This document shows, piece by piece, positions 16,874 to 33,426 of a stretch of 34,520 nucleotides of DNA (the first letter of the stretch is position 1; the number at the start of each line of letters is the position of its first letter). The stretch is taken from the NCBI GenBank assembly GCA_029260055.1, contig JAJDDX010000291.1:1-34520 (forward strand), in the 5' to 3' direction. The notes beneath the pieces are model-generated. The model did not search any database. It was not told the DNA's origin and saw nothing but the letters and a program-made list of their open reading frames with translations. The position numbers and the translations under genes are program-made. The DNA comes from Phycisphaerae bacterium (GTDB lineage: Bacteria > Planctomycetota > Phycisphaerae > UBA1845).

Positions 16874-19800
16874 TTATTGTGGAGTAGGGATGGACGCAGT
16901 GCTCCACACGATCGGCCCGATGGCCTCGGCCGGTCCGTCTAGTTCCAGCACGACGATGGTGTCGATGTCCCGGCGATGGGCGGCCGGGACTGTGATGCGA
17001 ATGCCGTCGTCGTCCTGCTCACACGCGCAGTCGCCGCCGGTCAGCAGCGTGCAGCCGACTACCCTGTTCGGCAGCGGAGGAAGGACGATCGCGGCGTCCG
17101 TCCAGTCGAGGACGTGCAGGTAGATTCGGTTGTCGGAGCACGTGCTGACGCCGCGCTCGCTCGGCTTGAACGGCCCGCCGCGGGTGCCGTAGATGCTCTT
17201 GCCGTACTTGGCGAGCCAATCACCCATTTCGCTCAGGCGGTCGACCTGTCTCGGCTCGATGCGGCCGTCCGGCATGGGGCCGACGTTGAAGAGAAGGTTC
17301 CCATCGCCGCCGACGGTTCGCACGAGCGTTTGGATACACTGCTTGAGCGGCTTCATCTGATCGTCGGGCTTCCAAGCCCACTGCCGGCAGATCGTCATGC
17401 AGGTTTCCCACGGGCGGTCGCGGTTAAAGCCGCCGATCTGCTGTTCGGGCGTGTCGAAGTCGCCGGGGTTGCCGGCGCTTTGGCTGGTGGTGCCGGCCAT
17501 GCCCTCTCGCCCCTTGCCGACGCGGTTGTTGATGATCAGATCGGGCTGGAGATTGCGGAGAAAGCCGTAGAGATCGTCTCCATATTCATGTGTCCAGGGC
17601 TTCTCCCACTCGCCGTCGAACCAGACGACGCCCAGCGGTCCGTAGTGCTCGATGATCTCCCGAAGCTGGCCTTTCATGTATTCGACGTAGCGTGGCAGGT
17701 TCGGCGTTGGCTTGATGCCTTTGCCGCCGGGGCTGCCTAAGGGATAGTCCTCGTGCCGCCAGTCGCAGATGGAGTAGTAGACGCAGAAACGAAGGTCGTG
17801 CTTCTTGCATGCCTCGGACAACTCCGCGAGCACGTCCCGCTTGAATGGCGTAGCGGTGATGTCGTAGTCGGTGAACGTAGAAGGCCAGAGGCAGAATCCG
17901 TCGTGGTGTTTGCTGGTGATGACGAGGTACTTCATGCCGGCTGAGACGGCGATGCGCACCCACGCGTCCGCATCGAACGCCGTCGGGTTGAACCGGCGAT
18001 AGAGATTGTCGTATTCCTCGATCGGAACGCCGTTGCCGCGTGACCAGCCGATCTCGGTGCCTTTGAGGGCGACGGGGCCCCAGTGAATGAACATGCCGAA
18101 ACGCGCGTCGCTAAACCAGTTCAGTCGGTCGTCGGGCTGCGTGGTGCTGCCTTGCTTAGTCGGCGGTGGAGCCACATCTGCCTCGACATGGAATAGTGCC
18201 TCTACTGGGATCGGTTGATGCTTGATGCCCGCGCCGCTGTAGAACACTTCGAGTACGTCATCGCCGCCGCGTTCGAAGTAGATGACTCGGATTCTGTGCA
18301 TCCCGGGGCCAAGGCCGATGTTGCCGTTGGCCTCTTTGCGGCCGTGCAGCCCGCCGTTTTCGACGATCAGCTTATTGCCGATGTAGAGCCTGCTGCCGTC
18401 GTCGCTTGCTGTGGTGAAAGTATAGACGCCTTGGCTTTGGATTTGGACGAATCCCGTGAACGCAAACCCGTAGGTGTCGTCGCGCTGCCGCTGCGTCAGA
18501 TCGAACTGCGCGGTTGTGCCCGACTTGACCGGTGTGAGCTCGTCGAAGTCAGGCAGCCCCTTCCACTCGCCTTCATAGTACCGATAGGCGAGCCCGGGCG
18601 TCGTATTGTCGGGTGTGTCCGGCTCGCGCGGTTCGGTGAAGGTGAACGTAGCTCGGGTGGCGAGTGCGTCCGGCGCGCCGCGGCGGACTGCTTTAGCCGC
18701 GATCGTGGCGGTTTCGCTCACCTTGAAGGGGCCGGTGTAGCGTGTGGATGCCGTTGTCGGCTCGGTGCCGTCGGTGGTGTAGAAGATCTTCACGTCTTTG
18801 CCGTCGGTCTCTATCGCGATGGTCGGCGGGTCGATGTAGAGCCCGCCGCGCGGTTTGATGTCGAGTGCATTGGCTCGATCGTACAGCGGTTGTGCCGGGA
18901 ACGTGTCGGCGCCGGGGTCCCGGGCGAGGGTCATCGCCATGATGCGGATGCGATCGTCCGTCGGAAGCGTCACGACGCTCGCACCCTTCGGGATATCCAT
19001 GCCGTATCGAAAGAGATAGCAGAAGACGTAGGGTTCGTTTCGGTCGGTGGCTGCGTCGTGGCGATGCGTGCCGACCCATGCGATGTCGTCGCGATGGATG
19101 AAGCCCGGTGCCATGCTGTCGCCGTCGAGGAGCTGGTCGCCGTCCATCAGGCTGTCGGATTGCCCGATCCAGCCACCGAAGGGTCGAACGGTGATCTCGG
19201 TGGCTTGATCGCCGACCTGGAAGATAGCGTCGGCAGGTTCGCCAGTTGTGGCTGCGAGGATGTAAAGGCGGTTGAACTCGCCGGTCGGCAGCGCGATCGA
19301 TTGGCCTTGGCACGAAAGGGCGTTGTCCACGCCGGGGGTCGCCGGCCCCATCGTGAAGGGGATGCCGCCGCTCGTCACCTTGGCGGGCAATAGCTCACCG
19401 GGCAGTGAATGGCCTTTGCCGTCGAAGTCGCCGCCGGATCGTTCGTTGTCGAGAGAGACCACGTCGCGATCGAACGCGAGCGGGATCGATTCGGCGGTTG
19501 GCGGATTCAGCGGTTCGTATGGGGAATGGAGCTTCACCGCGAACGTGCGGGGCTGGAACGGTTCGAGGTCGAAAGTGAGTTCGCCGCCGTCGACGCGGAC
19601 TTCGCCGACCGGCTCCTCAGCGCCACTGACCTCGCGGGCGGTGATGATGGGGTGTGCCATGGCGACGCGCACGGCCTTGGCCTCAAAGCCGTCTGCCTCC
19701 TGAACGCGCACGATGATCTGGTCGCTTAGTTCCGCCTTCTTGATCGCGCGGACGACCACCTGCGGCGTGCTCACGTCGAGCAGGGAGAGCCGTTTGCCGA

Positions 19801-22159
19801 GGGTGCCGGTGTGCCGGGACGTCTGGAACGCGATGAGCGGCTGATTGAGGCGAGCCGCTCGGCCGTTGGCGTTGCCTTTTCGCCAATCACCGGAATGACC
19901 GGCGAGGGCGTACGTCATGCGATGCCGACCCATGTCCTTCTGTACTTCCTTCGGCGTGTGGACGAGGGTCAGTCGAAGCGTGTCGTCGTTCGGTTTGTCC
20001 CAGCCGTACTTGCAGTCGCTGAAGATGGACGCGCCATATGAGCCGTCAGGTGCGGTCAGGTCTGCCCATTGCTGAGCGGGCACCTCGTACTTCGTTTCCG
20101 TGTTGTTGGGGCGCTCGATCACACCCCAGCCGAGGTCGTAGGTGGCCGTCGCGTTGGCGGCTGTCAGCGGGAATGCGGCCTTGAGCAGCGTTTGCGGCGT
20201 ATGCCAGTCGATTCTGCTGTCCCATACGACGCGATCACCGGCTGCCCCCGCTGCGAGGCTGACTTTCTGGATCACGGTCGATCCGGCGACATGGCGCACG
20301 ATCTCGACGGCCGCCCGCACCGGGCCGGCTTCGACGATTTTGACGTCGACGGGATTATCCGCGTAGGCATACGGTTCGGCGGAGACATCCTCGTACCGAA
20401 CCTCCCACTCGTCCCAGTAGTCGGGTGTGTTGCGCAGCAGTTCGAGACGCGCCGGCGCCTTCAGCAGTTCGCGATTCGTTGTCTTGTCGAAGATGCTCGC
20501 CACGTCGCCGTGCTCATCGATGCCGATGCGGTAATGGCGGTTTTCGATTTGGGAGGCCGCTACCGACAACTCGCTTTGTCCGGACCATGGCTTGTCCGCC
20601 GGCTGCACGTCGAACACGGCGAAGCCCGCCGATGGCACGCGGCCGAGGAACAACACGGTGATCTCTTTCTTGTAGGTGGACGTGATTTGCGACGGCACTT
20701 CGACGCCGCTTGGGTCGACCACGCGTACCGCCTTTGGTGCGGCCTCGGGGAAGCGGACCGTGGCTTCGATCACATCCTGTCGGTCGGATGCGAGTGGGTT
20801 ATAGACGACCAGCGGCACGCCGGTGGCCTGCGTGTCGAGCCCCCGCGCTACGGTGCCGACGGCCGTCGTGAGCACGTCGGAAAACTGGTTCAGTGCGATG
20901 ATCTCGTCGTTGAAGGAGAAGACATATGCCTGGGGGATGCTCGTGCCGGTCAGGTCGTCGTGGAACTGGTGCCAGAGGAAGCGGACCCACGCCTCTTCGA
21001 GCTTTTTTGTGGGATAGACGGTTCCACCGAGCCAGTCGGCTGTCACCGCGGCGCGCTCGGCGGCGTCGGCGAGCAGCTCGTTCTTCCGGTTCCATCGTTT
21101 CAAGGCTGCCATGGACGTGTAGCATCCGGTGCCATGGCGTGTCATGAGCATTTCGCCCTTGTATCGCGGCAGTTTGGCGACTTGCTCGGGCGTGAGGTCG
21201 CGGTAGAGCTGGTCGGCCGGTCTGTTGATGACTCGGATGGGTCCGTCGCCCGCGATTGACTTTTCGAGCCAGCCGACCGATTCGGGATTCGGTGCGCCGC
21301 CGACATCGCCGACGCCGACGTACTTGTAGCCTACGTAGGCTCCGGACTTTTCGCCGAGTGTGTTGATGGTGTCGAGCCACTCTTCGCTGACGCTGAGGTC
21401 TTCCTCCAGCTTGCTGACATAGGCGCCGGGGTTGACCGCGGCAATGAGCTCGGCGCCACCTACGCCCTCCCATACACCGACATCGAACGGGATTCCGATC
21501 GAGGAGCCCCAGGTCAGCTTCTGCGTGGAGAAGCCTGTTATGCCGCAATGCGCTGCGACCGACGGCAGGGCGTATCCGAAGCCGAAGCAGTCGGGCAGAT
21601 AGACATCGCAGCTCGTCTTGCCGAACTCGCGTTTGAAGTAGCCGTTACCATAGAGGGCGTGGCGGACCAGTGATTCGGGGGCCGGCACATTGACATCACA
21701 CGCATCGACCCAACTGCCGCAGACGTGCCACCTGCCCTGCTTGACGTATTCTTTGAGGCGAGCGTAATCCTCCGGGTAATACTCCTTCATCAACATGTAC
21801 CGGAACGAACCTTCGAAGCTGAAGGTGTAGTTCGGGAACTCGTCGAAGCGGGCGAAGTTGCCGTGCAGCGTGTCCGGGATGTACTCGTCGATCGTCTTTT
21901 GGATGGTCCAGAGCCACTGCGTATCGAGGTGCGCGGTAGCGGTGACGTAGAGCGTCGGGCGCTGCGTCGGCTCGGATTCGGCGGCTGTCTCCTCGGTGAC
22001 GGCCTGCGTATCGACCGGATCAGCGGCAAGCTCGGCGGCAACCGGCGGCCCGACGAGAAGAAAGGCGAGAAGTGCGTAGCGAGAAAGCCATGCTGGGGAT
22101 CGGAACGTGTGTGGCCGCGCGCTGCGCGCAGGCTCGGGATGCGACATGGATGGGTACAT
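16874..22159 (-). CDS. Exported multidomain glycosidase: GH38 alpha-mannosidase + chitobiase C-terminal-like + PA14 + GH29 alpha-L-fucosidase
   Basis: The protein has 1761 aa. After a signal peptide (hydrophobic ALLAFLLVG), a GH38 domain spans about 70-860. It has the metal-binding HLDTQWLW (His77, Asp79), the expected nucleophile region LPDCFGFGYALP (Asp190) and the conserved HDDLTGTSIPQ. A chitobiase-C-like domain (about 1107-1180, IFYTTDGTEPT) and a PA14 domain (about 1190-1325, YYEGEW, TTASDDGSRLYIG) follow. GH29 fills 1344-1761. It has GMFIHWG, SKHHDGFCLWPS and the nucleophile motif VVWFDGEW (Asp1515). Both catalytic units look intact. GH38 hydrolyses alpha-mannosides and GH29 alpha-L-fucosides, so one exported chain could trim fucosylated mannose glycans. 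PA14 may bind carbohydrate. The ATG at 22159 follows GAGG. A longer frame to 22216 has no ribosome binding site. Confidence 0.92.
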   Translation of the reverse strand: MYPSMSHPEPARSARPHTFRSPAWLSRYALLAFLLVGPPVAAELAADPVDTQAVTEETAAESEPTQRPTLYVTATAHLDTQWLWTIQKTIDEYIPDTLHGNFARFDEFPNYTFSFEGSFRYMLMKEYYPEDYARLKEYVKQGRWHVCGSWVDACDVNVPAPESLVRHALYGNGYFKREFGKTSCDVYLPDCFGFGYALPSVAAHCGITGFSTQKLTWGSSIGIPFDVGVWEGVGGAELIAAVNPGAYVSKLEEDLSVSEEWLDTINTLGEKSGAYVGYKYVGVGDVGGAPNPESVGWLEKSIAGDGPIRVINRPADQLYRDLTPEQVAKLPRYKGEMLMTRHGTGCYTSMAALKRWNRKNELLADAAERAAVTADWLGGTVYPTKKLEEAWVRFLWHQFHDDLTGTSIPQAYVFSFNDEIIALNQFSDVLTTAVGTVARGLDTQATGVPLVVYNPLASDRQDVIEATVRFPEAAPKAVRVVDPSGVEVPSQITSTYKKEITVLFLGRVPSAGFAVFDVQPADKPWSGQSELSVAASQIENRHYRIGIDEHGDVASIFDKTTNRELLKAPARLELLRNTPDYWDEWEVRYEDVSAEPYAYADNPVDVKIVEAGPVRAAVEIVRHVAGSTVIQKVSLAAGAAGDRVVWDSRIDWHTPQTLLKAAFPLTAANATATYDLGWGVIERPNNTETKYEVPAQQWADLTAPDGSYGASIFSDCKYGWDKPNDDTLRLTLVHTPKEVQKDMGRHRMTYALAGHSGDWRKGNANGRAARLNQPLIAFQTSRHTGTLGKRLSLLDVSTPQVVVRAIKKAELSDQIIVRVQEADGFEAKAVRVAMAHPIITAREVSGAEEPVGEVRVDGGELTFDLEPFQPRTFAVKLHSPYEPLNPPTAESIPLAFDRDVVSLDNERSGGDFDGKGHSLPGELLPAKVTSGGIPFTMGPATPGVDNALSCQGQSIALPTGEFNRLYILAATTGEPADAIFQVGDQATEITVRPFGGWIGQSDSLMDGDQLLDGDSMAPGFIHRDDIAWVGTHRHDAATDRNEPYVFCYLFRYGMDIPKGASVVTLPTDDRIRIMAMTLARDPGADTFPAQPLYDRANALDIKPRGGLYIDPPTIAIETDGKDVKIFYTTDGTEPTTASTRYTGPFKVSETATIAAKAVRRGAPDALATRATFTFTEPREPDTPDNTTPGLAYRYYEGEWKGLPDFDELTPVKSGTTAQFDLTQRQRDDTYGFAFTGFVQIQSQGVYTFTTASDDGSRLYIGNKLIVENGGLHGRKEANGNIGLGPGMHRIRVIYFERGGDDVLEVFYSGAGIKHQPIPVEALFHVEADVAPPPTKQGSTTQPDDRLNWFSDARFGMFIHWGPVALKGTEIGWSRGNGVPIEEYDNLYRRFNPTAFDADAWVRIAVSAGMKYLVITSKHHDGFCLWPSTFTDYDITATPFKRDVLAELSEACKKHDLRFCVYYSICDWRHEDYPLGSPGGKGIKPTPNLPRYVEYMKGQLREIIEHYGPLGVVWFDGEWEKPWTHEYGDDLYGFLRNLQPDLIINNRVGKGREGMAGTTSQSAGNPGDFDTPEQQIGGFNRDRPWETCMTICRQWAWKPDDQMKPLKQCIQTLVRTVGGDGNLLFNVGPMPDGRIEPRQVDRLSEMGDWLAKYGKSIYGTRGGPFKPSERGVSTCSDNRIYLHVLDWTDAAIVLPPLPNRVVGCTLLTGGDCACEQDDDGIRITVPAAHRRDIDTIVVLELDGPAEAIGPIVWSTASIPTPQ

Positions 22160-22242
22160 CGGTTCCTCGCTCGTTATGCGTGATGAATTCGGTCCGCCGC
22201 GAATAGTGCTGCGCACCGGGCGGCGGTTTCGCGGGGATCAAG

Positions 22243-24333: not shown

Positions 24334-26652
24334 ATGAAATCCATGCGACATGAATCGGCGGGCGACCCATCGGGTCATCATGAAGATGCACCGCCGACCC
24401 CCACGCGTCGATTTGGCGCTTTGCTGATCAACCTCGGCACGCCGGACAGCCCGGACGTAGCCGCCGTTCGGAGGTACCTGGCTGAGTTCCTGAGCGACCC
24501 GGAGGTCATTCAGCTCCCTTCGGGGCTGGGCTGGCTGAATCGTCCGCTCGGCCACCTGATCGCTCGGTTCCGGGCTCCGAAATCGGTCGAGATGTACAAG
24601 CAGGTCTGGGCGGAGTCCGGTTCACCGCTCAGCTCGATCACGCAGGAGCAGGCGACGACGCTCAAGGCAATGCTGCCGCCGGACTGGCAGGTCTTCTACG
24701 CGATGCGATACGGGCAACCGTCCATCGCCCAGACGCTCAAGGAGATTGAGGCGGCGGGGATCGAGGAGCTCGTCGTCATTCCGATGTATCCGCAGTTCAG
24801 CGGAAGCACGACGGGCACAGCCGTCCGCGAGCTGTACAGTTGCCTGAAGAAGGGTGGACACCACTTCAGCGTGACGGTGCGGAATAGCTGGTACAACGAC
24901 GGCGGTTACATCCATGCCCAGGCGAGTCTGATCCACGAATACACTCGCCGGCACGGCTTGACGCCCGAGAATAGCGTGCTGGTCTTCTCCGCGCACGGGC
25001 TGCCGACCTCATACGTCGAGCGTGGCGATCCCTATCCGGCGCATACGCAGAAGACCATCGAGTTGACGCTCGAACGGCTCGGCTGGCCCGCCGATAGGAC
25101 GGCTGTGGGCTACCAGAGCCGGATCGGCCCGGTCAAGTGGCTCGAGCCGAACGTCGACACGCTGCTTGAGGAGTTGGCGGAGAGCGGCGAGAAACGCCTG
25201 TTGGTGTGCCCGATAAGCTTCACGGTTGACTGCCTCGAGACGTTGGAGGAGATCGACGTGCGGTATCGCGCACTTGTGGAAGCTCGCGGCTCGGACATGT
25301 TTCTCTGCCCGGCACTCAACGCGTACGAACCGTTCGTGACAGCCGTCAAGGAGCTGGTGCTTCGCGGGCCGCGGCCGATCACCTCCTGGGGTGAGAAGGT
25401 CGAACCGCTTCTCGTTCAGAAGTCCGAGAAGAAGATCGTCCATCGCGAGACGGACGCTCTGTTGATGATCGGCACCTCGAAGGCCAACGCCATCGGTTCC
25501 GGGATGGGGCCGCGGCTGGTTAGCAGCAGCGAAGAGGGGTTGTGCCGGGTCAAGAAGTCCCAGTGCGACGCGGTGCCGCTTCTCAAGAGCACCTGCGACG
25601 ACACGGGCGTGACCGGCGGGTTCCTATTCAATACTTGTTATCGTTTCGAGTTTTACGGTTGGCTGCCCGATGACGCCGACGACGTGCAGCGTGAGAGCGT
25701 GATCGCCCAGGTGAAGTCGCGGCTCTTCGACGTCGACGAGTCGGATGACGTTGAAGTCAACGTGCTGGTCGGGACCGAGGCATGGCATCATCTGATGCGG
25801 ACAGCCGGTGGGCTCAACAGCGGGCTGCCCGGGGATACTGACATACTCGAACAGTTGCAGACGGCGCACCGGGTCTCCGAGCGAGCAGGTACAGCCGGCC
25901 GGCGTACCAAGCGGTTGGTTGCTGATGCATTGTCGGCTGAACAGCAGCTTCGCGGCGAGACCGCATGGGGCGAGTTTGACCCCGGTTACTGCTACGCCGC
26001 GATGGCTCGCCTTGTCGAGGCGGCGGGGCTTAGCCTCGCGGACAGTCGATGCGCGGTTTTCGGCGGATCGACGACATCGCGTTCGGTGCTTACGACGCTT
26101 GCAGGTCGTTTCGAAGTGCCGTCCCGGACGATCACGCTGGTCTATCGCGGGCACGGCAGCGGGCAAATGAAGCTACTCCGCAAGGCGATCGGCAACGGCA
26201 AGCGAGTGCGTGTCGGAGCTTACGGCGAGCGTGCGGCGGTTGAGGTGGTCCAGGGCGCCGACGTGGTCGTGTTTGGCATTGATCACAACGAACCCGTGCT
26301 GGACGTGGAGCAGATTCGCGACTGCCGCGATTTTACCGAGAAGCCGCTTCTGATTATCGACTTCAATACCTTCGGCTCGACCTCGGGCATGGAGACGCTC
26401 GAAGGCGTCACGGTGTGGGATGCGGCAACGCTCGATGCCGCCGTCGTGGCGTACGGCGACGAGATGTGCGATCAAGAGGATTTCACGACGGCCGTTGCTG
26501 AAGCGGAAGAGTGGATCGTAGCCAACGCGGCGCGGTGGCAGTGCAAGGTCGCTGTCGAGCCGACGCCGGATCAATGCGGGGATTGCCCCCGCCGGGCCAA
26601 GGGCCTATGCGTGGACGTCCGAATCGAGACGGCCGGGAGGAGCGCATCATGA
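24334..26652 (+). CDS. hemH-hemA: Ferrochelatase - glutamyl-tRNA reductase fusion protein
   Basis: One 772-aa frame joins two heme enzymes. Residues 27-350 are ferrochelatase, which inserts iron into protoporphyrin IX. They have LLINLGTPDSP, the catalytic-site His221 in SAHGLP and Glu302 in DCLETLEEID. Residues 370-735 resemble glutamyl-tRNA reductase, which makes glutamate-1-semialdehyde. The catalytic cysteine motif is NTCYRFEFY (Cys435), followed by HHLMRTAGGLNSG, DTDILEQ and the GTAGRRTKRLV helix. Two things are odd. The nucleotide loop reads FGGSTTSRS without a normal GxGxxG. The usual C-terminal dimerisation domain is almost absent and is replaced by a tail with Cys737, 748, 751 and 759 that could bind iron-sulfur or zinc. 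No stop or frameshift separates the halves. The stop overlaps the hemN start (ATGA). No other reductase gene is present. Confidence 0.88.
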   Translation: MKSMRHESAGDPSGHHEDAPPTPTRRFGALLINLGTPDSPDVAAVRRYLAEFLSDPEVIQLPSGLGWLNRPLGHLIARFRAPKSVEMYKQVWAESGSPLSSITQEQATTLKAMLPPDWQVFYAMRYGQPSIAQTLKEIEAAGIEELVVIPMYPQFSGSTTGTAVRELYSCLKKGGHHFSVTVRNSWYNDGGYIHAQASLIHEYTRRHGLTPENSVLVFSAHGLPTSYVERGDPYPAHTQKTIELTLERLGWPADRTAVGYQSRIGPVKWLEPNVDTLLEELAESGEKRLLVCPISFTVDCLETLEEIDVRYRALVEARGSDMFLCPALNAYEPFVTAVKELVLRGPRPITSWGEKVEPLLVQKSEKKIVHRETDALLMIGTSKANAIGSGMGPRLVSSSEEGLCRVKKSQCDAVPLLKSTCDDTGVTGGFLFNTCYRFEFYGWLPDDADDVQRESVIAQVKSRLFDVDESDDVEVNVLVGTEAWHHLMRTAGGLNSGLPGDTDILEQLQTAHRVSERAGTAGRRTKRLVADALSAEQQLRGETAWGEFDPGYCYAAMARLVEAAGLSLADSRCAVFGGSTTSRSVLTTLAGRFEVPSRTITLVYRGHGSGQMKLLRKAIGNGKRVRVGAYGERAAVEVVQGADVVVFGIDHNEPVLDVEQIRDCRDFTEKPLLIIDFNTFGSTSGMETLEGVTVWDAATLDAAVVAYGDEMCDQEDFTTAVAEAEEWIVANAARWQCKVAVEPTPDQCGDCPRRAKGLCVDVRIETAGRSAS

Positions 26653-28073
26653 TCGCACCGAATAGCATCGTTGATCTCGAGGTCTTTCGTCGTTACTCAG
26701 GCCTGTCACTGCCGCGGCACGTATCGTATCCGATGCCGACCGGCTGGAACGACATGGACGAGGACGGCGCGCTGGCGATGCTTCAAGACAGCAACAAGCG
26801 TGAGCAAGACAACGGGCTGTCGCTCTACCTGCACATTCCTTTTTGCGAGGCCTTGTGCAAGTTCTGCGCGTGCACCCGTGTGATCCTGAAGAAGAACGTC
26901 GCCGGCGCGGCTGACCGCGTGGATGCGTATCTATCGGCGATCGAGCGGGACCTCGATCGTATGGCAAGTGTGGTCGGCAGCCGCCGTGTGGTTCGACAGA
27001 TCCACTGGGGGGGCGGCAGCCCGACTTATCTTTCTTCGGAACAGATCCAACGCCTTCAAGGGAAGATCAACGACCTGTTCGACGTGGCGCCGGATGCCGA
27101 GATCGCCATGGAGATCGACCCGCGCACGGCGCCGCCGGACAAGCTTCAGGCGTTGCGGGCGGCTGGGTTCAATCGGGTTTCGCTGGGGGTGCAGGACTTC
27201 TCGGAGCAGGTGCAGATGCACGTGCGGCGGATACAGCCGTACGAGATGGTCCGTGAGACGGTGTCGGTGTGTAAGGCCTTGGGGTTTGAGAGTGTGAACT
27301 TCGATCTGATCTACGGTTTGCCGTATCAGACGCCGGCGACCGTGCGGGACACGATCGAGCAGGCGATCGCTTTGGCGCCGGATCGTGTGGCGTATTACCA
27401 CTACGCCCAGATTCCCGAGAAGATCGCCACGCAGCGAGGGATGGACTACACGAAGCTGCCCGACAGCGAAGTCAAGCTGGAGATGTTCATGGCCGGCGTC
27501 GAGCTCTTCGGGGCCGCCGGCTTCGACTTCATCGGGCTGGACCACTTCGCCAAGTCCGAAGAAGGCCTCGCCCAGGCGATGGAGGAGGGTACGCTGCAGC
27601 GGAACTTCCAGGGCATGACTACCGGCGGCGGTCTGGACTTGATCGGTGTGGGGGCGTCGTCCATTGGTCACCTTGCGGGCATCGGCTTCCTTCAGAACAT
27701 GCGCGAGTCAGAGGACTACATAGCGTGCGTCGAATCCGGAAAGCTGCCGGTCGTCCGCGGCAAGCGCTTCTCCGACGACGATCGAATCCGCCAGGCCGTC
27801 ATCAGTGAGCTCTATTGCACTGCTGAGATTCGGCCGGAACCGATCGAGAGGGAATTCGGTATCGTCTTTGCGGATTACTTCGCCCGCGAGCTGACGATTA
27901 TGGAAGAGCTTCAGCGTGACGGCCTCGTGATCCTGCAGTCCAACGGGGCTATCCGCGCGACGATGCCGCTCGGTCGTGTGTTGCTACGGACCGTGGCGGC
28001 GCCGTTCGACGCGTACCTCGATGACGACGCGTACCGCGTGGGCGATAAGAACTGCTTCTCCGCGAACGCATAA
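26649..28073 (+). CDS. hemN: Oxygen-independent coproporphyrinogen III dehydrogenase
   Basis: HemN is a radical SAM enzyme that decarboxylates two propionates of coproporphyrinogen III to vinyls without oxygen. The 474-aa product has YLHIPFCEALCKFCACTR, so cysteines 66, 70, 73 and 75 lie in the CX3CX2CXC arrangement. The fourth cysteine marks true HemN rather than HemW. GGGSPTYL and the later FDLIYGLPYQT are also family blocks, and the C-terminal domain of HemN is present. The ATG at 26649 follows GGGAGGAG and overlaps the stop of the fusion gene by four bases, so translation is coupled. A longer frame from 26511 reads into the upstream gene and is not used. Confidence 0.95.
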   Translation: MIAPNSIVDLEVFRRYSGLSLPRHVSYPMPTGWNDMDEDGALAMLQDSNKREQDNGLSLYLHIPFCEALCKFCACTRVILKKNVAGAADRVDAYLSAIERDLDRMASVVGSRRVVRQIHWGGGSPTYLSSEQIQRLQGKINDLFDVAPDAEIAMEIDPRTAPPDKLQALRAAGFNRVSLGVQDFSEQVQMHVRRIQPYEMVRETVSVCKALGFESVNFDLIYGLPYQTPATVRDTIEQAIALAPDRVAYYHYAQIPEKIATQRGMDYTKLPDSEVKLEMFMAGVELFGAAGFDFIGLDHFAKSEEGLAQAMEEGTLQRNFQGMTTGGGLDLIGVGASSIGHLAGIGFLQNMRESEDYIACVESGKLPVVRGKRFSDDDRIRQAVISELYCTAEIRPEPIEREFGIVFADYFARELTIMEELQRDGLVILQSNGAIRATMPLGRVLLRTVAAPFDAYLDDDAYRVGDKNCFSANA

Positions 28074-32469: not shown

Positions 32470-32486
32470 AAAGTCATGCGACTCCG

Positions 32487-32509
32487 CACTGGTGGACAAG
32501 CCACCAGTG
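32487..32509. repeat. Dispersed palindrome, ACAAG-loop type, copy B
   Basis: It is identical over 23 bases to the palindrome at 8377-8399 and is followed by the same TGGCACCC. It is intergenic, just beyond the hemC stop. Confidence 0.8.
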
Positions 32510-32541
32510 GCACCCACGCGCTTGTCCGTGGCACCCAGTTG

Positions 32542-33426
32542 CTAGCCGCTCAGTGCCGCCACAAGGCGATCGGCCAAGCGAATGCCGACCTGAATCGGGT
32601 CGTCGCCCGTCTCCGAGCCCTCGACCATCTTGACACCGGGGTCGTCGAACAATTGCCCGCTCAAGGTCACCGTCGAGCCGTCGATCTCACCGAGGGCACC
32701 GACCGGCGTATGGCAGCCGGCGTTGATCCGCGTCAGAAAGCTGCGTTCCGCCTCGACGGCTCGGCGCGACACGGCGTCGTTGAGCACGCCGATGATCGCC
32801 GCGGCTTCGTCGTCCGCGCGCGTCTGGATGGCCAGCGCGCCCTGCGCCGGCGATGGCACGAAGCGATCGGACGGCAGCTCCGTCATGTTGGGATAGGTAA
32901 TGCCGAGTCGTTTGAGCCCGGCGGCTGCGAGCACGACGCCGTCGAGCCCTTCCTTTTCGATCTTGTCGACGCGCGTCTGCACGTTGCCTCGGATCGGGAC
33001 GATCTCCGCGCCGATGTAGCGCCGCACCTGTGCCGAGCGCCGCGGACTGGCTGTGCCGATGCGGTAGCCGGCCGGCACGTTGTCCAGGTCGAACGGCTTG
33101 GCGGTCAGCAATACATCGTTGACGATCTCGCGCTTCGGGACGGCCGAGATGACCAATCCGGTCGTGACCGCGGTCTGCAGGTCCTTGAAGCTGTGGACGG
33201 CGAAGTCGACGCTCTTTTCGATCAGCGCGTTTTCGAGGGCGCTGACGAACGCGCCGACTGGCCAATCGCCGCCGAACTGCTCGTTGAGCGCTACGTCGCC
33301 GTGGGTCTTGATGATGATCTGCTCGATCTCGAGCGACGGATGGGCTTCGCGCAGGCGATCGCAGACCCAGTTCGTCTGCCAGAGGGCCAGAGCACTCCCG
33401 CGCGTGCCGACACGTAAACGGCTCAT
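32542..33426 (-). CDS. hemC: Hydroxymethylbilane synthase (porphobilinogen deaminase)
   Basis: HemC polymerises four porphobilinogens to hydroxymethylbilane on a covalent dipyrromethane cofactor. The 294-aa enzyme has the N-terminal RVGTRGSALALWQT, catalytic Asp82 in HSFKDLQT, the arginine-rich GTASPRRSAQVRR and the cofactor cysteine Cys238 in RINAGCHTPVGA. The ATG at 33426 overlaps the hemL stop by four bases (ATGA). The longer frame to 33591 reads into hemL and is rejected. Order and coupling indicate an operon hemL-hemC-hemD. Confidence 0.97.
   Translation of the reverse strand: MSRLRVGTRGSALALWQTNWVCDRLREAHPSLEIEQIIIKTHGDVALNEQFGGDWPVGAFVSALENALIEKSVDFAVHSFKDLQTAVTTGLVISAVPKREIVNDVLLTAKPFDLDNVPAGYRIGTASPRRSAQVRRYIGAEIVPIRGNVQTRVDKIEKEGLDGVVLAAAGLKRLGITYPNMTELPSDRFVPSPAQGALAIQTRADDEAAAIIGVLNDAVSRRAVEAERSFLTRINAGCHTPVGALGEIDGSTVTLSGQLFDDPGVKMVEGSETGDDPIQVGIRLADRLVAALSG

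Follow-up and report, generated by a model that had tools for sequence, protein, structure and literature searches.

Here we describe a gene of a Phycisphaerae bacterium (Planctomycetota) that joins a ferrochelatase in frame to a divergent glutamyl-tRNA reductase (GluTR), and whose product is, in our judgement, quite probably a bifunctional heme enzyme, with the fused GluTR serving heme synthesis in this lineage. The gene lies on contig JAJDDX010000291.1 of assembly GCA_029260055.1, of which the analysed stretch of 34,520 nucleotides is referred to below as the window. An earlier note on this DNA had described one uninterrupted frame of 772 codons carrying the motifs SAHGLP and LETLEEID of ferrochelatase and NTCYRFEFY and HHLMRTAGGL of GluTR. 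We confirmed that the gene is a single open frame of that length with no internal stops, and all four motifs are present. Its parts are as follows.

24334-26652 (+): ferrochelatase-GluTR fusion gene, 772 codons; architecture shared by 30 further loci
24400-25368 (+): ferrochelatase domain, residues 23-345; Pfam 326 bits, human ferrochelatase Z 36.8
24994-24996 and 25237-25239 (+): ferrochelatase active-site codons for His221 and Glu302; invariant in 31/31 fusions
25369-25443 (+): interdomain linker, residues 346-370; model confidence low around 363-371
25444-25962 (+): GluTR catalytic domain, about residues 371-543; GlutR_N 62.5 bits
25636-25638 and 25789-25791 (+): GluTR catalytic codons for Cys435 (E. 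coli Cys50) and His486 (His99)
25963-26544 (+): GluTR NADPH-binding domain and start of the spinal helix, about residues 544-737; a GGSTTS loop replaces GxG
26545-26649 (+): disordered C-terminal tail, residues 738-772; pLDDT below 50; contains CGDCPRRAKGLC

The ferrochelatase half was recognised by the Pfam Ferrochelatase profile (residues 28-343; cut-off 27) and passed the TIGR00109 hemH profile with 290 bits against a cut-off of 124.6. The second half matched GlutR_N over residues 413-543 (gathering score 27); with the TIGR01035 hemA profile it scored 68 bits, below the equivalog cut-off of 209.55, and the scores of all fusions ranged from 52 to 90 bits, none reaching that cut-off. In an AlphaFold2 model built on the 31 fusion sequences (mean pLDDT 84.9, pTM 0.55), the N-terminal part has the human-type ferrochelatase fold, and Arabidopsis GluTR is matched over the catalytic and NADPH domains by residues 371-739 or 371-741 (Z 27.5). 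The fusion shares with canonical HemA/GtrR (TIGR01035; 1gpj, 4n7r, 5yjl) the order and fold of these two domains, but its GluTR half sits behind a ferrochelatase and lacks the C-terminal dimerisation domain: the model is disordered past residue 737 and the closest fold matches end at 739-741; the C-terminal tail occupies its place. Compared with HemH (TIGR00109; human 1hrk, 2hre), the fusion has the full ferrochelatase fold with the active-site His and Glu. Human ferrochelatase carries a C-terminal Fe-S extension, whereas in the fusion no such extension follows the fold and the chain runs on into GluTR.

We considered that the frame might be an assembly or frameshift artefact merging two adjacent genes, as the window gives the fusion on one contig only. 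When one genome from each of 84,980 species was scanned for two motifs taken from the fused GluTR, 30 loci were revealed, in 29 genomes that all belong to Planctomycetota and in many cases are labelled Phycisphaerae, and in 30/30 of these loci both halves share one frame, of 760-880 codons with one case of 1236. These independent loci, which include the chromosome-level records CP070685, CP070691 and CP070772, refute an artefact, which we regard as exceedingly improbable, and exclude a sequencing error hiding a stop between the halves. The in-frame fusion proposed by the earlier note is thus upheld both by the profiles and by the same frame in relatives, where the note had suggested looking for it.

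Most of the genomes compared are incomplete metagenome bins. In a class sample of 248 genomes, profile matches of at least 286 bits were in every case part of an open frame about 780-870 codons long, and the weaker ones resembled ordinary GluTRs; in a phylum sample of 392 genomes the strong matches were restricted to the class of the window, and one genome outside it (G589) had a weak match of 109 bits. In our tree the fused GluTRs make up a single, fully supported clade on a long stem, separate from both the heme-type and the siroheme-type HemA. Judged from these sequences, the fusion is of single origin and has been retained across several families. Divergence is correlated between the two halves (r 0.68 over 465 pairs) and is faster in GluTR, with a mean identity of 43% versus 56% for the ferrochelatase half. 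In a plasmid search no record covered 80% of the fusion, and the best matches spanned the ferrochelatase half only. Two genomes have unusual arrangements. In Planctomycetota bin B90T1L10 (L091:5714-9421, forward strand), ferrochelatase, GluTR and HemN lie in the one 1236-codon open frame, where the expected hemN start has no Met codon, so that a triple fusion is possible. CP070685 carries two fusion copies (L074, L075) about 10 kb apart in opposite orientation, each adjoining different parts of the heme cluster.

Both halves are probably catalytically active, as far as conserved residues can indicate. His221 and Glu302 of the ferrochelatase half, which align with SAH and DCxET in the human enzyme, are present in 31/31 fusions, and from these retained active-site residues we infer that this half inserts iron. 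In the GluTR half the Thr49-Cys50-x-Arg52 motif of canonical enzymes is retained (E. coli numbering throughout): Thr49, Cys50 and Glu54 are found in 31/31 fusions, Arg52, His99 and Ser109 each in 30/31, and Gln120 in 30 or 31 of the 31. Across the catalytic domain, canonically conserved positions were kept in 15 of 23 cases versus 8 of 142 for other positions. The fold of the Rossmann NADPH-binding domain was also matched, and Arg214 is kept in 29/31. Two positions differ from canonical GluTR in every fusion: Gln116 is replaced by Asp or Glu, and Gly191 of the NADPH loop by Ser, which turns GxG into GGS. Together with the absent dimerisation domain, these replacements could alter kinetics, cofactor preference or assembly, and it is mainly because of them and of the domain loss that we do not call the fused half a proven GluTR.

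The replacement of Gln116, a glutamate-contacting position in the Methanopyrus kandleri GluTR structure, could mean that the reductase half has changed its substrate to another aminoacyl-tRNA or a thioester. However, canonical enzymes vary at this position too (His in 4/7 siroheme-type enzymes, Gly in one heme-type enzyme), linkage to hemL, hemB, hemC and hemD is conserved, and most fusion-bearing genomes have no other GluTR, so we consider a changed substrate very unlikely. The same replacements, with the high divergence and the lost dimerisation domain, could instead point to a non-catalytic domain, one that binds NADPH or acts as a sensor and regulates ferrochelatase, with ALA then coming from another enzyme. 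The retention of Cys50, Arg52, His99 and Ser109 in 30-31 of the 31 fusions speaks against such a domain, as does the gene content of the genomes discussed below.

Regarding the tail, CxxC occurs in 8/31 fusions, including the earliest-branching pair; Cys-rich tails were noted in the window and in L089, L095 and L096. A Cys-rich metal site as a general feature of the tail was rejected on this count. It is possible that the Cys-rich tail represents a metal or heme site that was lost in the other fusions.

The earlier note had stated that the rest of the pathway adjoins the fusion, which is correct and, if anything, understated: the fusion heads a full set of heme genes, with hemN, hemE, hemY and hemB following on the forward strand and hemD, hemC and hemL converging on the reverse strand. 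The fusion stop and the hemN start codon overlap (ATGA at 26649-26652).

26649-28073 (+): hemN, oxygen-independent coproporphyrinogen III oxidase; TIGR00538 460 bits
28089-29150 (+): hemE, uroporphyrinogen decarboxylase; TIGR01464 316 bits
29156-30577 (+): hemY-type protoporphyrinogen oxidase; TIGR00562 286 bits
30644-31666 (+): hemB, porphobilinogen synthase; NF006762 473 bits
31658-32320 (-): hemD, uroporphyrinogen-III synthase; PF02602 86 bits
32542-33591 (-): hemC, porphobilinogen deaminase; PF01379 214.5 bits
33423-34520 (-): hemL, glutamate-1-semialdehyde aminomutase, cut by the contig end; TIGR00713 444 bits

The hemL score rises to 499 bits when the gene is read to the contig end, and the true start of hemC probably lies downstream of the listed GTG. 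A forward-strand ORF at 32476-33417 appeared conserved in tblastn and was rejected as a gene, being the antisense of hemC. The order fusion-hemN-hemE-hemY-hemB is kept in most loci that are long enough, and several also have hemD and hemL. We found no HemQ in the present genome, nor in any member of a 40-genome sample that carries the fusion; the coproporphyrin branch was rejected on these grounds, and the heme set fits the protoporphyrin branch.

Whether the fused half is the GluTR for heme depends on the other GluTRs of these genomes. The earlier note had stated that no separate hemA is present, which is true of the window and false of the genome: a search for a second hemA, named in that note as a finding that would count against it, did reveal one (C238:9143-10231, 237.9 bits with TIGR01035). 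The contig probably derives from the same organism as the window, given that the two agree in GC content (63.2 and 63.0%) and in their tetranucleotide usage (r 0.98). From the translations and homologues of its neighbours, this hemA has sulfite reductase on one side and, on the other, a CbiX-type chelatase with cobA-hemD. In 12 further relatives with a hemA of this type, a sample mixing fusion-bearing and fusion-free genomes, the gene adjoins homologues of cbiX and cobA, and PAPS reductase, and often sulfite reductase, were found too, so that the second hemA and its counterparts lie in a siroheme cluster in 13/13 genomes examined. This setting makes it most likely a siroheme GluTR, which accounts poorly for heme supply. 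Like the fused half it belongs to the GluTR family, but it is a stand-alone protein, encoded in a cluster with PAPS reductase, sulfite reductase, cbiX and cobA, and falls in a different clade. The siroheme-type clade with its own sulfate-assimilation cluster was observed at L003:494-9544 (the C238 locus) and at L102-L114. Several genomes with siroheme-type HemA have no hemH at all; these may make siroheme and no heme by this route.

In 23 of the 29 named genomes with the fusion, among them CP070685 and CP070772, both chromosome-level records, no further GluTR was matched; five have only a siroheme-type hemA besides the fusion, and one has a heme-type hemA, whereas hemL is present in all 29. 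ALA synthase was rejected as an alternative source of ALA, since it gave no match above the cut-off in the genomes of 40 relatives; the profile matches at around 280 bits presumably come from related PLP enzymes. Of these 40 genomes, 18 have hemH: 14 with the fusion and four with a separate heme-type hemA (G005, G027, G033, G037); the 19 genomes with neither fusion nor heme-type hemA all lacked hemH. The fused half is thus most likely the GluTR for heme, given the 23 genomes devoid of another GluTR, the presence of hemL in all 29, and the lack of an ALA synthase above the cut-off in the 40-genome sample. These observations, with the retained catalytic residues, support the suggestion of the earlier note that the reductase half is probably the working enzyme. 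The full second hemA of the present genome could in principle supply ALA, and it would also favour a non-catalytic sensing domain; since 23 of the 29 genomes have hemL with no other GluTR, and ALA synthase gave nothing over the cut-off in the 40 relatives, we consider such a domain improbable. In some fusion-only genomes cobA adjoins the fusion (L071, L075), so that siroheme there must depend on this GluTR as well, and exclusive service to heme is possible only where a siroheme hemA exists. One chromosome-level record, CP070691, has a separate heme-type hemA and hemH beside the fusion. Its fusion (L069:6876-9194) lies outside the heme gene cluster and the N-terminal stretch of its ferrochelatase is scrambled, as would be expected under relaxed selection, in this one case.

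For a bifunctional enzyme we propose that the N-terminal half would insert iron into protoporphyrin IX, the last step of the pathway, and that the C-terminal half would convert glutamyl-tRNA to glutamate-1-semialdehyde, the first committed step, from which the neighbouring HemL would make ALA. Where a separate GluTR exists, the second hemA in the sulfite-reduction cluster would serve siroheme; where the fusion is the only GluTR, all tetrapyrroles would depend on it for their ALA. The C5 pathway is entered at GluTR, a recognised target of control by heme, and bacteria differ in how the end product is linked to this entry step. In line with the earlier note, which had suggested that pathway entry could be coupled with iron or heme status, we tentatively suggest that the join links GluTR activity to the occupancy of the ferrochelatase half by heme, porphyrin or iron, giving heme-specific feedback. 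A fuller version, in which ferrochelatase would act as a sensor of heme, protoporphyrin or iron at the end of the pathway and control how active the joined GluTR is, with siroheme controlled separately where a second GluTR exists, is rather doubtful.

Both halves could equally be active with the join having no regulatory meaning, serving equal amounts or co-localisation, or with ferrochelatase replacing the dimerisation domain of GluTR. This competes only with the feedback part of our explanation. It is in keeping with the absence of that domain, with a linker that is short and poorly ordered in the model, whose pTM of 0.55 does not predict a fixed contact between the halves, and with an otherwise ordinary gene order in which the hemN start overlaps the fusion stop. 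On the other hand, the two reactions share no intermediate, so channelling is an unlikely reason for the join, and a fusion of single origin has been retained in several families. We regard a join without regulatory meaning as a real possibility, a little short of an even chance; stoichiometry or co-localisation only, perhaps with the ferrochelatase half as a scaffold for the lost domain, is at least as likely as feedback. A bifunctional protein whose reductase half serves heme synthesis is common to both.

Fusions of tetrapyrrole enzymes such as CysG and CobA-HemD are known (PMC7242693, PMC4921024). In these, the joined steps are consecutive or close together, around intermediates that are unstable, whereas the present fusion combines the first and last steps, which have no intermediate in common. 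No earlier description of a ferrochelatase-GluTR fusion was found in the open-access literature searched; within that literature, the enzyme families are known, their arrangement is unreported, and the GluTR is divergent and truncated. With the first and last enzymes in one protein, which is often also the only detectable GluTR, a direct link between them could be tested in a single purified protein. The fusion further challenges the idea that GluTR cannot do without a dimerisation domain, and it occurs in a lineage of uncultured Planctomycetota where heme and siroheme each appear to have a GluTR of their own. Annotation based on TIGR01035 would label many fusion-bearing organisms as hemA-negative. 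Elsewhere in the window, we noted on the reverse strand (16874-22216) a frame of 1780 amino acids in which, by eye from its translation, an alpha-mannosidase-like part and an alpha-L-fucosidase-like part appear to be joined.
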